From the NCBI GenBank assembly GCA_017467445.1, contig JAFTSG010000005.1, positions 1-64,000 on the forward strand: DNA of 64,000 bases, read 5' to 3'. The notes under the pieces are model-generated. The model was not told the origin of the DNA. It saw only the letters and a list, made by a program, of their open reading frames with translations, and did no database searches. Positions within the stretch are counted from its first letter, which is position 1. Each line of letters begins with the position of its first letter. A program made the translations under genes and the position numbers. This document shows, piece after piece, positions 1,024 to 56,451 of the stretch. Origin of the DNA: Clostridia bacterium (GTDB lineage: Bacteria; Bacillota; Clostridia; RUG12999).

Positions 1024-2376
1024 TTATATGGGTAATATTGCCATTGCAAATACAAAATATAAAATAAGTGACAAAACGTCTATAATTGTTGTAATAAGCG
1101 GGCTTGCCATAACCGCCGGATCAAGTCCTATGCGTTTTACAAAAATCGGCAGGATACATCCCACAATTTTTGCACAAAGCACCGATACTACAAGCGCAAG
1201 GGATACAACGAGTGATACCGCCATTATGTTTAAGTCTCCCATATCGCCTCTGTCAAAAATCATCATTTTTACAAAGTTACCTGCCGCAAGTGTTATTCCG
1301 CAAAGAAGTGCCACACGGGTTTCTTTCCAGACAACTTTAAAAATGTCTTTCATGCAAACCTCGTCAAGTGACAGAGCACGGATAATTGTAACCGACGACT
1401 GTCCACCGGAGTTACCGCCCGTCCCCATAAGCATAGGAATATATGCCGTAAGCACTAGCGCGCCTGCAAGTGCACCTTCAAACGCAGTTATAATTTTCCC
1501 CGTAAATGCCGAGGAAAACATAAGTATAAGAAGCCACGGAATACGGCTTTTCCATGTATCCCACACACTTGTTTTCAGATACGGTTTTTCGCCAGGAATA
1601 ATAGCCGCCATCATCTCGATATCTTCGGTTGCTTCCTGCTGCATAATATCCACAACGTCATCAACCGTAATAATACCCACAAGTCTGTTTTCGCTGTCTA
1701 CAACCGGCATGGAATCAAGGTCGTATTTCTGGAACATATGAACAACGGCTTCCTGGTCGGCAAGGGTGTTAACCGCAATGAAATTATCGTTCATTATATC
1801 TTCGAGCAGTTTTTCCGTATCTGCAAGAAGAATTTTCCTGAGCGATACTGTTCCGATAAGTTTTCGCTTTTCATCGAGGACATAGCAGGTGTTGATGGTT
1901 TCTTTATCAACGCCAACATGTCTTATTTTGGTGAGTGCCTGAAGCGCTGTAAGATTGGCTTTTAAATCCACAAATTCGACTGTCATAATACTGCCTGCCG
2001 AATCATCCGGATACTGAAGTAGCTGATTTATGTCACGTCTGGTTTCAGGGTTTGCATTACGCAGTAATCTTTTTACCACGTTTGCCGGCATTTCTTCAAG
2101 AAGGTCAGCCGCATCATCGGCATAAAGATTATCAATAATATTTTTTGCTTCGTTATCGGATAGTGATGAAATAATCATCTGTCCTGTTTCTATGTCAAAA
2201 TATGCAAAAACATCCGCCGCTATATCTTTAGGCAGGAGTCTGAATATTTTAAAACACTCTTCGTGTTCAAGTTCATCAAGAAATGCCGCAATATCAACCA
2301 CGTTCATTTCAAGCAGTTCCTGACGAAGCATTGTATACTGTTTTGCATCTATTAAATCCTTAATTCTTTCTGTCAC
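1024..2376 (-). CDS. mgtE: magnesium transporter MgtE
   Basis: A 450-residue Mg2+ channel/transporter of the cytoplasmic membrane. Order of parts: a MgtE N-domain (about 25-130) made of short helical repeats, a CBS pair (about 135-255) that senses cytosolic Mg2+, a plug helix, and five membrane segments from about 285. The membrane part holds the signature GTGGNSGGQSS of the ion pore. The start is GTG with AGAAGGGG upstream. It is the last gene of a three-gene minus-strand unit with a PAP2 phosphatase and a small anchored protein. No M-box-like leader is seen directly in front of it; the leader of the unit lies at 3731-3890. Confidence 0.95.
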   Translation of the reverse strand: MTERIKDLIDAKQYTMLRQELLEMNVVDIAAFLDELEHEECFKIFRLLPKDIAADVFAYFDIETGQMIISSLSDNEAKNIIDNLYADDAADLLEEMPANVVKRLLRNANPETRRDINQLLQYPDDSAGSIMTVEFVDLKANLTALQALTKIRHVGVDKETINTCYVLDEKRKLIGTVSLRKILLADTEKLLEDIMNDNFIAVNTLADQEAVVHMFQKYDLDSMPVVDSENRLVGIITVDDVVDIMQQEATEDIEMMAAIIPGEKPYLKTSVWDTWKSRIPWLLILMFSSAFTGKIITAFEGALAGALVLTAYIPMLMGTGGNSGGQSSVTIIRALSLDEVCMKDIFKVVWKETRVALLCGITLAAGNFVKMMIFDRGDMGDLNIMAVSLVVSLALVVSVLCAKIVGCILPIFVKRIGLDPAVMASPLITTIIDVLSLILYFVFAMAILPI

Positions 2377-2396: not shown

Positions 2397-2783
2397 TCAA
2401 TTTTTCGAAATCTTATGCACCTCATACACACCTTTTTCAAGTGTATATTCTATGGTAACATTGTCCTCTTCTTCTATGTTCAGATTGTCAAAACTTGCCT
2501 TTAGTGAAGGCGAAAGTTTTGCACTTACATATTTATCATTAATCATTATTTCGATAAAATTAGAGTCTGCCAGACCTATATAAACCCCTTTTGCTGAAAG
2601 CCTTTTTTCTTCTTCAGGTGTTGGCTGTGGAGTAACAACTTCTTCGGGTGTAGGCTGCACAGTTACCTCTGGCGATACCGTAGGCTCCGGCTGTGGATTT
2701 GCCGGCACACCAGAGTTCATATATGCCCATCCCGCAAATATAATTACAGCTATAAAAATAACTATACCTAAAAACTTTTTCAT
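2397..2783 (-). CDS. small membrane-anchored protein, unknown function
   Basis: 128 residues that I do not recognise. An N-terminal hydrophobic segment (about 4-22) should anchor it. A Pro/Glu/Thr-rich linker with repeated PTPEE-type units (about 28-60) follows, then a compact domain (about 62-128) likely rich in beta strands. No lipobox cysteine is present, so it is probably a membrane anchor or uncleaved signal rather than a lipoprotein. Its start overlaps the end of the PAP2 gene by 4 bp (ATGA), which implies translational coupling. The domain probably lies outside the membrane. Confidence 0.75.
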   Translation of the reverse strand: MKKFLGIVIFIAVIIFAGWAYMNSGVPANPQPEPTVSPEVTVQPTPEEVVTPQPTPEEEKRLSAKGVYIGLADSNFIEIMINDKYVSAKLSPSLKASFDNLNIEEEDNVTIEYTLEKGVYEVHKISKN

Positions 2784-3703
2784 GTTGTTTCCTCCTTTTT
2801 TGCTTTGAATTTACTCCAGAACTTAAACGTCATCGGCCATAAAATTCCTCCGACTGCAACTATCGCAAAATACCTTATTGCATAATGCGAGTAGTGCCCG
2901 CCTGTAATAAACTTTGCCGGCTGCCGAACAACAAAAGCCGTCAGTGCAATAAGGATTATTCCGATTGTGCATTTAAGTATCTGCCCCCATACACTCGCCT
3001 TTGTTTCCCATTTTATCGTGTATTTATCGGCATATCTTGCCGAAACAAGTCCAAGCGCAAGGCCTAAAATAGTATATCCGTTTTTCAGCCCGTCCATAGA
3101 ATTTTCATCGACAGGCGATTTCATAAATTCCATATATATGACAATTATAATTGCATATAAAACAAGGGCGCTGTTCAGTATTATATCCGTTTTTTCACTT
3201 TTCTCAGCAGCCTGAAATACCGCACTTATACCAACCACAAATATGCCGCCAAGCACCCAGGAAGTTATTACATCCGCAGGCGAATGTACACCAAGATACA
3301 TTCTTGAAAATCCGATAAGAAGAATAAGCAAAATAAGCAGTGTTTTTTTCCATTTTGCCTTTATTTTTGCTGCAATACATCCAAAAAGAACGGTTGCATT
3401 TGCGGTATGTCCGCTGGGGAAAGAATAGCCGCTGGCGGCATCTCTTGCGCTTTCCACAATGGTAAGTTCGGGGTTTTTTACCCACGGGCGAGATATTTTG
3501 AATATGTTTTTAAGAAGCTGATTTGTTCCCAGATTGAAAAAAGTGCAGTACAGCATATTATATGCCATAGACTTGTTTCCGCACCACAAAAAAACCGTAA
3601 GAACAACTACAGCCACCGCTTCGTCACCAAAATGGGTTATTATGTTAAAAATAAAGTCCAGAAACGGCGTTCTTACCGATTCAAGAAACAGTAAAAATTC
3701 AAT
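2780..3703 (-). CDS. PAP2-superfamily membrane phosphatase, apparent ATT start
   Basis: An integral-membrane lipid phosphatase of the PAP2 superfamily, acting on phosphatidate, undecaprenyl-PP or a similar lipid. All three signature motifs are present: KNIFKISRP, SFPSGHT, and SRMYLGVHSPAD with the catalytic His. The first standard start codon is a GTG at 3616, but the reading frame upstream back to 3703 encodes the conserved N-terminal helix (FLLFLESVRTPFLD...FGDEAV). A strong AGGAG (3710-3714) is 6 nt from an in-frame ATT at 3703, and an in-frame stop lies at 3718. I therefore extend the gene to 307 residues with a non-standard ATT start. The alternative is a one-base deletion in the T run after an out-of-frame TTG at 3702. 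Confidence 0.8.
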   Translation of the reverse strand: MEFLLFLESVRTPFLDFIFNIITHFGDEAVAVVVLTVFLWCGNKSMAYNMLYCTFFNLGTNQLLKNIFKISRPWVKNPELTIVESARDAASGYSFPSGHTANATVLFGCIAAKIKAKWKKTLLILLILLIGFSRMYLGVHSPADVITSWVLGGIFVVGISAVFQAAEKSEKTDIILNSALVLYAIIIVIYMEFMKSPVDENSMDGLKNGYTILGLALGLVSARYADKYTIKWETKASVWGQILKCTIGIILIALTAFVVRQPAKFITGGHYSHYAIRYFAIVAVGGILWPMTFKFWSKFKAKKEETT

Positions 3704-3730
3704 ATTTTTCTCCTGTTAATAACAATAAAA

Positions 3731-3890
3731 AAGGACTGCAAAGCAGCCCTGTGATTATACTTTTAAGGCAATGAAAAAACCTGCCCCCTCGTTCACAAAA
3801 TCACACGGAGTCTTCGCTATGCATATTTTATTATTGAATCTACATCGGTAACTGTCCATTTTTTATTATTTCCTCTTCTAAAAATATTTT
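3731..3890 (-). ncRNA. unassigned structured leader / small RNA
   Basis: About 160 nt lie between a perfect promoter (3897-3925) and an intrinsic terminator. The terminator stem is GGGCTGC/GCAGTCC (3734-3750) followed by six T, and it stops just before the Shine-Dalgarno of the PAP2 gene. Inside, TGTGATT (3799-3805) pairs with AATCACA (3750-3756), enclosing an internal loop and a GGGCA/TGCCT hairpin. I cannot match it to a known riboswitch. A 6S-type RNA is possible but not shown. It is either a cis-acting leader of the PAP2-MgtE unit or an independent small RNA. The rest of the 3704-4081 gap holds this promoter and the serC promoter. Confidence 0.5.
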
Positions 3891-3896
3891 TATTTT

Positions 3897-3925
3897 ATTA
3901 TACACCCACCACCGTAAAATGTCAA
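3897..3925 (-). promoter_or_regulatory. consensus promoter of the PAP2-MgtE leader RNA
   Basis: On the minus strand TTGACA (3920-3925) and TATAAT (3897-3902) have an exact 17-bp spacer. This is one of the strongest promoters in the window and predicts transcription from about 3890. Confidence 0.85.
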
Positions 3926-4013
3926 GCATGGGTGCGCTATGTATGAATTTAACAATAATTTGTCATATTGGTTGTTATTTATTTATCAAATCGGATATTT
4001 TACCTTTTTTCCC

Positions 4014-54089: not shown

Positions 54090-54590
54090 TTGTACATATT
54101 TGCACAGATTATAGGAATTGCGGCACTTTGCTGTGCCGTATGCTCGTTTCAGCAGAATAATCACAAGAAAATACTGTTTTTCCAGATTTTATCGGGATTA
54201 CTTTTTACAATTCACTTCACTTTAATTAGTGCTACGCTCGGCGGTGTGCTGAACTTTTTCGGTATGCTCCGCAGTATTGTTTTTTACAATAAAGATAAAA
54301 AATGGGCCGAGGGTTCAAAATGGCTGTATATTTTCAGCGGCATATTTATTATAACGGGCATCTTATTCTGGGAAGGTCCTATCAGCCTGTTTCCCATGGT
54401 ATCTATGGTTATTTCAACCATATGCTTCTGGGTTACAAACCCAAAAAAAGTGCGTCTTCTTATGCTTCCGGCATCGCCGCTGTGGATGGTGTATAACCTG
54501 ATAAATAAATCCATAGGCGGTTTCCTTACAGAAACATTTGTGCTTTGCTCGGTTATCATAGGTATGATAAGATTTGATAGAAAAGCTTGA
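54090..54590 (+). CDS. YgjV-family membrane protein
   Basis: 166 residues with five to six membrane helices, in the pattern of the YgjV group (IIGIAALCCAVCSFQQNNHKK...LLFTIHF). The start is TTG at 54090 with GAGGAG 10 nt upstream. Function unknown. Its last codons contain the -35 box of the glycine riboswitch promoter. Confidence 0.82.
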   Translation: MYIFAQIIGIAALCCAVCSFQQNNHKKILFFQILSGLLFTIHFTLISATLGGVLNFFGMLRSIVFYNKDKKWAEGSKWLYIFSGIFIITGILFWEGPISLFPMVSMVISTICFWVTNPKKVRLLMLPASPLWMVYNLINKSIGGFLTETFVLCSVIIGMIRFDRKA

Positions 54591-54615
54591 CAAAGCTCAA
54601 TATGTGTTGTATAAT
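54587..54615 (+). promoter_or_regulatory. promoter of the glycine riboswitch transcript
   Basis: Perfect TTGACA (54587-54592) and TATAAT (54610-54615), 17-bp spacer, overlapping the end of the YgjV gene. Confidence 0.88.
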
Positions 54616-54634
54616 GTTAAAGGTTAAAATTTAA

Positions 54635-54816
54635 TAGATAGCTATGTGAAGTTTGCAGGGGAAGCAAATTTGCTGCCGAAGGAGTAAAACTCTCAGGCGC
54701 CTCATACTCGGGGCAGGGACTGCATACGGATAGCTCTCCGGAGAACCCTGAATAAGTCAGGTGCCGAAGGTGCAAGGCAAATTAAGCCAAATCTCTCAGG
54801 CAAAAGGACGGAAGTA
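54635..54816 (+). promoter_or_regulatory. tandem glycine riboswitch
   Basis: Two glycine aptamers in series. Aptamer I (about 54637-54729) has GCCGAAGGAGTAAAACTCTCAGGC and then GGGGCAGGGACTG. Aptamer II (about 54730-54816) has GTGCCGAAGGTGCAA, AATCTCTCAGGCAAAAGGACGGA. These are the conserved core segments of the class. Two hairpins follow, the second a strong terminator before the symporter gene. Glycine binding would set expression of the transporter. Confidence 0.95.
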
Positions 54817-54880
54817 AAAACCCTGTAATCGGGTTTTGTTTGTTTGTCTTTTAGAGTTGGTATGCACCAACTCTTTTTTA
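54817..54880 (+). terminator. expression platform of the glycine riboswitch
   Basis: A first hairpin AAAACCC/GGGTTTT (54817-54838) is followed by a second, AGAGTTGG/CCAACTCT (54853-54874), with seven T. The second is the intrinsic terminator. The first may be a competing or additional terminator. Confidence 0.8.
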
Positions 54881-54912
54881 TTTATATATAATTTTGTAAA
54901 GGGGATAGAATT

Positions 54913-56451
54913 ATGACATTCTTACAGTCACTTGAGCACTACAACGGTATTGTCAATACCTTTGTATGGACAACTCTCGGTCTTGTGCTCTTACTCGCAA
55001 CGGGTGTACTTACAACCATTCTCACAAAATTTTTCCAGATTTCACATATTGGTATGTGGTGGAAAAACACTATCGGTAGTTTATTTAAAAAAGATGTAAT
55101 CGGTCATTCAAAAGACAAAAAATCCATTTCACCGTTCCAGGCGCTTTGTACCGCACTTGCGGCAACAATCGGTGTTGGTAACATTGCCGGGGTTGCATCT
55201 GCAATTGCAATCGGCGGACCGGGTGCTGTTTTCTGGATGTGGGTTGCAGCATTTTTCGGCATGATGACAAACTATTCTGAAAACGTTCTCGGTATTTATT
55301 ATAGAAGAAGAAATGCAGACGGCGAATGGTCAGGCGGTGCAATGTACTACCTCCGCGACGGTCTTGGAAAATTAAAAGGCTGTAAATGGGTTGGAAAAAC
55401 ACTTGCTGTTCTTTTCTCAATTTTCACACTCCTTGCATCCTTCGGTATCGGTGCAATGGGTCAGGTAAACAAAATTGTTTTAAACCTCGAATCTGCATTC
55501 CGTATTGACGCACTTGCAAACATTCAGGTTTTCGACGGCGTATCTCTTTATGCGGTTATTCTTGGTATAATCCTTGTTATTATTGCAGGCCTTATTGTTC
55601 TTGGCGGTCTTAAAAGAATTGCCAACTTTGCAGAAAAGGTTGTACCGTTTATGGTTGTACTCTTTATCATCGGCAGTGTAACAATTGTTGCTGTAAATTA
55701 TGCCAACATTCTCCCTGCGTTCAAAGCAATATTTGCAACAGCATTCAAACCTGTTGCGGTTGCCGGCGGTGTAACAGGTGCACTTATTAAAACCGTTATG
55801 GTACAGGGTTTCAAACGTGGTGTATTCTCCAACGAAGCAGGTCTTGGTTCTTCCGTAATGGTACACTCCAACTCCAATGTTAAAGAACCTGTAAAACAGG
55901 GTATGTGGGGTATTTTTGAAGTGTTTGCGGATACAATGGTTGTATGTACACTTACAGCTCTTGTAGTTCTTACATCAGGTGTATATCCAAACCTTTATGC
56001 TCCGGTAGGTTCAGTAACCGACAGCCCGACAATGGTTGCAGATGCATTCAACACCGTATTCGGTTTCTGGAACATAGGTGGAAAATTCATTGCTATTGCA
56101 ATATTCCTGTTTGCTTTTACAACAGTTCTCGGCTGGGACCACTACGGCTCAAAGGCATGGGAATATCTGTTTGGTACGAAAACAGTAAAACTGTATAAGG
56201 TTCTTCACCTTGTAACCATTATGCTCGGTGCGCTCCTTACATCATCACTTGCATGGGACATTTCCGATACATTCAACGGTCTTATGATGATACCCAACTT
56301 AATTGGTGTTATCGTTCTTTCTCCGCTTGTAATGAAAATCACAAGCAACTACATAAAGAGAAAGAAAAAAGGTGCTGATGTAAAACCAATGCTTTCAGTA
56401 TTTGAAGATATTCAGTCGGCTCACGAAAAAGAGCTTTCTGAAGAAGAATAA
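54913..56451 (+). CDS. sodium:amino acid symporter (AGCS family)
   Basis: 512 residues with ten to eleven membrane helices. Family motifs: PFQALCTALAATIGVGNIAGVA, GPGAVFWMW and GGAMYYL near the N-terminal third, and QGFKRGVFSNEAGLGSS. AGCS proteins move alanine or glycine with Na+. Control by a glycine riboswitch points to glycine as substrate. AAGGGGA precedes the ATG; a strong terminator follows. Confidence 0.95.
   Translation: MTFLQSLEHYNGIVNTFVWTTLGLVLLLATGVLTTILTKFFQISHIGMWWKNTIGSLFKKDVIGHSKDKKSISPFQALCTALAATIGVGNIAGVASAIAIGGPGAVFWMWVAAFFGMMTNYSENVLGIYYRRRNADGEWSGGAMYYLRDGLGKLKGCKWVGKTLAVLFSIFTLLASFGIGAMGQVNKIVLNLESAFRIDALANIQVFDGVSLYAVILGIILVIIAGLIVLGGLKRIANFAEKVVPFMVVLFIIGSVTIVAVNYANILPAFKAIFATAFKPVAVAGGVTGALIKTVMVQGFKRGVFSNEAGLGSSVMVHSNSNVKEPVKQGMWGIFEVFADTMVVCTLTALVVLTSGVYPNLYAPVGSVTDSPTMVADAFNTVFGFWNIGGKFIAIAIFLFAFTTVLGWDHYGSKAWEYLFGTKTVKLYKVLHLVTIMLGALLTSSLAWDISDTFNGLMMIPNLIGVIVLSPLVMKITSNYIKRKKKGADVKPMLSVFEDIQSAHEKELSEEE

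Follow-up and report, generated by a model that had tools for sequence, protein, structure and literature searches.

The window, a stretch of 64,000 nucleotides from a metagenome-assembled Clostridia genome that is 61% complete, carries an operon for a PAP2-superfamily phosphatase, a small acidic lipoprotein candidate and the magnesium transporter MgtE, preceded by a short leader RNA (Table 1). The PAP2 gene apparently starts at an ATT codon (3701-3703) with a well-placed Shine-Dalgarno sequence, at a place where the relative used for comparison has ATG. This relative (G001, GTDB 'Clostridia bacterium isolate RGIG5440', from sheep colon), the sole other genome of the genus that was compared, shows an identical gene order at its locus L051, with serC divergent and PAP2, lipoprotein, mgtE and a Mn-catalase-like gene downstream.

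Table 1. Features of the leader RNA and of the operon that follows it in the window.
Feature	Position	Strand	Details
Sigma-70-type promoter, TTGACA-N17-TATAAT	3897..3925	(-)	12/12 consensus match; predicted start ~3890
Leader RNA	3727..3890	(-)	~164 nt, ends at intrinsic terminator; from promoter and terminator positions
Shine-Dalgarno-like AGAGGA for small ORF	3871..3876	(-)	11 bases 5' of ATG; AAGAGGG in relative
Small ORF, putative leader peptide MDSYRCRFNNKICIAKTPCDFVNEGAGFFIALKV	3755..3859	(-)	34 codons, begins 31 nt into transcript
R-X-R arrest-type motif, codons 5-7	3839..3847	(-)	R-C-R (R-S-R in relative); from sequence
Antiterminator 5' arm, outer part, GCGAAG	3812..3817	(-)	Minimum-energy fold; predicted to pair with CUUUGC 3743-3738 inside terminator
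Antiterminator 5' arm, inner part, CC-G-UGUGAUU	3799..3808	(-)	Helix P1 and extension; invariant in both species
Hairpin P2 (GGGGCAG ... UUGCCUU)	3765..3787	(-)	Inside P1; stem kept, one G-U to A-U; loop differs
P1 3' arm continuing into terminator 5' arm, AAUCACA-G-GG	3747..3756	(-)	Fold and two-species comparison
Intrinsic terminator hairpin AGGGCUGC-UUU-GCAGUCCU and U-run	3727..3750	(-)	From sequence; also in relative
PAP2-superfamily phosphatase, first gene	2780..3703	(-)	Pfam PF01569, E=3e-24
Small acidic LytA-like lipoprotein candidate, second gene	2397..2783	(-)	NCBIfam LytA-like, 42 bits, below cut-off of 110
MgtE magnesium transporter, third gene	1024..2376	(-)	TIGR00400, 456 bits, cut-off 233

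The consensus promoter reported in an earlier note on this DNA is confirmed, with all 12 positions matched in the relative as well as here, and the window has five copies of the exact TTGACA-17-TATAAT pattern where shuffles predict 0.03. The other four copies stand before tRNA-Trp, upstream of a glycine riboswitch at 54587 and, in two cases, immediately before a coding gene. The transcript length predicted from the promoter and terminator positions agrees with the ~160 nt given in that note, and the terminator (AGGGCUGCUUUGCAGUCCU with its U-run, 3750-3727) is invariant in the relative; it does precede the PAP2 Shine-Dalgarno sequence, with a gap of ~12 bp from the end of the T-run. Consensus scans of the two species for sigma-70-type promoters found no other conserved one for PAP2-lipoprotein-mgtE downstream of the leader promoter, and a 10/12 promoter-like site inside the leader of the window is lost in the relative. 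Because no such promoter follows, expression of the three genes probably depends on read-through past the leader terminator, and this, together with the short distance between T-run and PAP2 Shine-Dalgarno sequence, suggests that the leader acts in cis. As read from the sequence, a promoter of its own, a leader and an intrinsic terminator just 5' of the gene to be regulated form the expected arrangement of an attenuator, and the glycine riboswitch at 54587 has the identical layout of promoter, structure, terminator and gene.

Some neighbouring features of the window were recorded alongside. The glycine riboswitch (54587-54960) follows a perfect promoter, and two hairpins that resemble terminators lie between it and the next gene. 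Between the divergent serC and leader promoters lies a nearly invariant block of 56 nt (3946-4001) that departs from the relative at one or two positions, compared with 73% agreement at third codon positions; it contains AACAA-N16-TTGTT, possibly an operator common to both promoters. A tRNA-Trp-like segment on the minus strand (117-172), with a CCA anticodon loop and without a T arm, sits between a perfect promoter (220-192) and tRNA-Trp (76-3); neither ARAGORN nor Rfam calls it, and it may be a degenerate copy of a tRNA or else a mimic of one.

The cmscan search that the earlier note had proposed yielded no family for the leader, as Rfam at gathering and at permissive thresholds gave only chance matches at this locus, even at E of 10. 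The judgement in that note that this is not an M-box (ykoK leader) riboswitch holds, with no Rfam model match at the locus and none in the part of the genome examined; in four genomes of the family RF00380 is likewise absent. The M-box resembles the leader in the cis-regulation of Mg2+ transporter genes and differs from it in fold, and neither this genome nor its relatives yielded a match to it. The suggestion of a divergent 6S RNA in the earlier note is not supported, as the 6S model (RF00013) fails to match here and the real 6S RNA of the genome was found elsewhere (G000:C6:20941-21130, 75 bits), as was that of the relative. The size of ~160-190 nt and the nearby Mg2+ transporter would suit a 6S RNA that has diverged, or one of the known leader families (M-box, yybP-ykoY, ydaO) in a form that escapes the Rfam models; given the 6S RNA found elsewhere, the family genomes free of M-box and the lack of any but chance matches, this explanation is largely refuted and we hold it to be extremely improbable.

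The pairing of TGTGATT with AATCACA (3805-3799 with 3756-3750) around a smaller hairpin, GGGGCAG...TTGCC, which had been noticed from the sequence, is borne out by the comparison, the helices being kept between the two species. Window and relative disagree at 1 of 38 paired positions in the three helices and at 12 of 35 unpaired ones (Fisher p = 0.0004; p = 0.004 without the terminator). Leader identity is 86%; for the two genomes agreement at codon positions 1, 2 and 3 is 0.927, 0.954 and 0.728 and in aligned intergenic DNA 0.885, so that the intergenic block of the leader (0.86) is constrained relative to third positions and not above average intergenic DNA. Double-sided covariation is absent from these two sequences, both from incomplete metagenome assemblies, with no pair changed on both sides, and the fold energy of the leader taken by itself is unexceptional (z = -1.3). 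The leader RNA is real and functional-looking.

Most of the first ~95 nt of this RNA is taken up by a small ORF that the earlier note missed. Its counterpart in the relative (MDSYRSRFNNKICIAKAPCDFKD) comprises 23 codons and ends at UAG, where the window has GAG and runs on to 34 codons, so the 3' end of the ORF is not conserved. Over the first 21 codons six substitutions separate the two species, four of them at third positions and all of these synonymous, and there is no indel, whereas indels are present both before and after the ORF. The probability that six random substitutions would cause at most two amino acid changes and no stop is 0.024, and a coding model exceeds a uniform model by ~1.5 log units, a modest signal. 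This pattern of conservation is of the coding type and is suggestive of translation, though not proof of it. With its start signals, this coding-type conservation and its overlap with the predicted switching arms, the ORF is what would be expected of an attenuator, at modest statistics and with a stop that is not conserved. Attenuation specific to one amino acid was rejected, since the ORF contains no run of one codon.

The antiterminator predicted by folding pairs ORF codons 15-21 with the 3' arm of P1 and the first half of the terminator, making antiterminator and terminator mutually exclusive in the model, as attenuation requires. In the ribosome-free fold the terminator is sequestered by default in both species, with P(terminator) = 0.021 in the window and 0.001 in the relative. 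When the part upstream of the terminator was subjected to 500 dinucleotide shuffles the median rose to 0.998 and 0.997, respectively, and the shuffles that fell as low as the native sequence made up 2.0% (window) and 0.8% (relative). The terminator-off default is unchanged under other dangle, GU and lonely-pair settings, the 3' domain alone gives 0.05 and 0.06, and a second energy set gives 0.144 for the window and 0.0 for the relative. The two species use partly different antiterminator base pairs, the predicted fold of the relative placing GCA/AGC/AGC opposite the same stretch of the terminator in a different register. Of the 64 combinations possible at the three changed arm positions, those in use rank within the top 12; placed in the background of the window, the triplet of the relative gives P(terminator) of 0.003, and half of the 64 triplets exceed 0.4. 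In the model, the three substitutions would therefore keep the arm working.

A ribosome-sized mask at codons 2-10 leaves the terminator off (P at most 0.1), and at codons 12-23 turns it on (P 0.6-0.99), in both species and for modelled footprints of 24 and 30 nt; a footprint of 34 nt shifts the changes one or two codons earlier. The modelled position of a ribosome on the ORF thus decides between terminator and antiterminator, as the same kind of attenuator would demand, within an equilibrium calculation that ignores kinetics and can only roughly stand in for a decision made kinetically; the energies of the two folds lie just ~2 kcal/mol apart, which is within model error. A ribosome modelled at the final stop of the 34-codon ORF in the window itself blocks the terminator (P = 0), and the logic at full translation may differ there for this reason.

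We propose a model in which the leader RNA is a ribosome-dependent transcription attenuator of the PAP2-lipoprotein-mgtE operon, restricted to the genus, and on the sequence and folding evidence we give this reading somewhat better than even chances. RNA polymerase would start at ~3890 and produce a leader with a Shine-Dalgarno sequence and an ORF of 23-34 codons, of which codons 15-21 (GCGAAG-ACUCC-G-UGUGAUU) double as the 5' arm of the antiterminator. When nothing is translated, or when a ribosome stalls within about the first ten codons, this arm would capture AAUCACA-GGG-CUGCUUUGC, the 5' half of the terminator, and the polymerase would read into the operon, such that read-through is the default. 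A ribosome that passes codons 12-23 would cover the antiterminator arm and leave the terminator free, and transcription would stop just before PAP2. The trigger for expression would then be slow or arrested early translation, perhaps by a drug acting at the R-X-R motif or by low Mg2+ acting on translation. We infer in this model that the ORF is translated, that termination and read-through both take place in cells, and that such a trigger exists. The type of attenuator is known, and this example of it is undescribed.

The earlier note had proposed a folded sensing domain, and of this proposal the structured, terminator-ended leader before PAP2-mgtE stands, while the evidence favours a leader peptide over ligand sensing because the first ~95 nt are mostly ORF and the modelled ribosome position controls the choice of fold. 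Aptamers are usually widespread. A metabolite or ion riboswitch of a new class, in which P1/P2 binds a ligand such as Mg2+ and so picks terminator or antiterminator with translation uninvolved, would account for the conservation of P1/P2 with variable loops, for the overlap of terminator and antiterminator and for the Mg2+ transporter in the operon; against it, the domain is small (~55 nt, one hairpin in one helix) and neither a conserved junction nor a pseudoknot was seen in it, the leader was not found beyond one genus, unlike the usual aptamer, and its upstream part looks coding, and we regard it as unlikely. Slightly less doubtful, if still on the unlikely side, is a stand-alone product, either a short mRNA for a protein of 23-34 amino acids or a small regulatory RNA, with the PAP2 operon living on leaky read-through and no switch involved. 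The promoter and terminator of the RNA and an ORF with a Shine-Dalgarno sequence and coding-type substitutions agree with such a product; it would leave PAP2-mgtE with no conserved sigma-70-type promoter, the shuffles make the antiterminator unlikely by chance, and the C-terminal part of the peptide differs between two close species.

Returning to the attenuator, its putative trigger can be approached from the R-X-R motif, which by sequence lies in the predicted stall zone, as macrolide-dependent arrest would require. Such motifs arrest ribosomes with macrolides in the leaders of hflXr (PMC6310831) and tlrB (PMC6851288). Codon 5 is the rare CGA (2.3 per 1000 codons, 7% of Arg codons). Among random 23-mers from the ORFs of this genome, 0.6% contain R.R within residues 2-9 and 6% the looser [RK].[RK]. 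No macrolide or lincosamide resistance gene is found downstream, where the genes are PAP2, lipoprotein and mgtE. Given this and the rate of the looser motif, the motif may serve as a lead only. The mgtE gene of the operon makes Mg2+ another candidate trigger; the link to a Mg2+ transporter that the earlier note had drawn for its sensor is plausible in this respect, if unproven.

Among described systems, rli80-hflXr of Listeria monocytogenes (PMC6310831) likewise consists of a short constitutive leader RNA with an intrinsic terminator before the gene, a small R-X-R ORF, alternative terminator and antiterminator folds and a predicted dependence on ribosome position. It differs in that here PAP2-lipoprotein-mgtE and not a drug-resistance factor lies downstream, in that our example is a prediction from sequence and folding, and in that no anti-antiterminator was found in the window, the ribosome itself presumably playing that part. 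The tlrB/yxjB leader of Bacillus subtilis (PMC6851288) shares a leader ORF, an arrest-type R-X-R and transcription attenuation; there the motif ends a peptide of 9 amino acids and the stalled ribosome directly prevents termination, whereas here it stands at codons 5-7 and a stall would merely spare the antiterminator arm. The mgtL and mgtCBR leader ORFs of Salmonella (PMC3641672, PMC6460261) also precede, as small leader ORFs, operons with a Mg2+ transporter, but they are enterobacterial, are based on proline codons and have no sequence similarity to the leader of the window, which has an intrinsic terminator and no proline run. Finally, the ilvB uORF attenuator of Corynebacterium (PMC10272879, PMC11109978) combines a uORF, an antiterminator arm near its end and an intrinsic terminator, but its uORF contains many codons for the amino acids under regulation, and the ORF in the window has no such run.

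So far the leader is known only from this genus of gut bacteria. Its covariance model, R1, gave 202 and 199 bits for the two members of the genus and at most 29.6 bits elsewhere in a sample of 391 genomes of the class; the strongest match beyond the genus (E 0.007 per genome) is at chance level, with only A-rich sequence and the terminator aligned. DNA similarity revealed no relatives of the leader beyond the genus among 99 relatives, and a search of 291 genomes of the class revealed no convincing relative of the peptide outside it, 30 weak matches being judged chance, as the best ones examined fall within other genes or have no start context. The earlier note had recommended a comparison of the regions upstream of homologous PAP2 genes; orthologues at 34-41% identity in GTDB genomes are without such a leader. 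A pattern scan returned three matches in viral contigs, all unrelated, and none in plasmids.

A different structured leader, whose uORF is of the type MDxGSSSG, stands before mgtE in the sister genus (L180, L181, L188). This leader, of ~160-230 nt and with a uORF consensus of about MDAGSSSGxxPxxR, occurs in many families of Bacillota; the loci, all in related genomes and not in the window, are L180, L181, L188, L195-L210, L211-L223, L227 and L228. Its covariance model, R2, had matches at E <= 0.01 in another 16 genomes of the class, the match lying directly before mgtE in 12 and before a gene similar to a MgtA-type P-type ATPase in four, an assignment that rests on reading the ORF sequences. 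Over 18 sequences 31 of the 38 pairs in the R2 structure are changed on both sides, with 99 such cells against 32 in shuffles, and the covariation score is 0.396 against 0.05-0.09 for slid versions, values obtained on an alignment fitted to the model. With R3, a sequence-only model searched in 398 genomes of the phylum, all 13 best matches and 15 of 22 overall stand upstream of mgtE or the same type of ATPase, mostly immediately. At four loci (L195, L199, L200, L209) an M-box lies just upstream of the leader. The MDxGSSSG leader is absent from Rfam 15 and no description of it was found in the literature searched, where an 'mgtE motif' is confined to Thioalkalivibrio (PMC11109978).

The leader of the window matches neither R2 nor R3 and is not a recognisable member of this class. 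That it is a widely diverged member would fit the same position relative to the mgtE operon, a uORF of similar length, a similar start context (GAGG...AAAATGGA) and the presence of the class before mgtE in the sister genus. We nevertheless consider it highly improbable, as the region is matched by neither model and peptide and pairing both differ, R2 codons 3-11 pairing with the 3' arm where codons 15-21 would do so here. As an analogy, the MDxGSSSG leader lends weight to the view that operons for Mg2+ transporters in this group have been placed under uORF control. It is conceivable, though we think it unlikely, that translated leader ORFs are a widespread means of controlling Mg2+ uptake in Bacillota and that this genus has swapped the common MDxGSSSG type for an independently evolved attenuator, in which translation status, as a gauge of the Mg2+ that is available to ribosomes, sets transcription of PAP2-lipoprotein-mgtE.

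Should the attenuator model hold, gut Clostridia would adjust a lipid-phosphate phosphatase and a Mg2+ channel together according to how translation is faring, and stress on ribosomes would thereby be connected with the physiology of membranes and magnesium. Furthermore, with the far more widespread uORF leader before mgtE and mgtA-like genes, it becomes directly testable whether Bacillota control Mg2+ transporters through translation.
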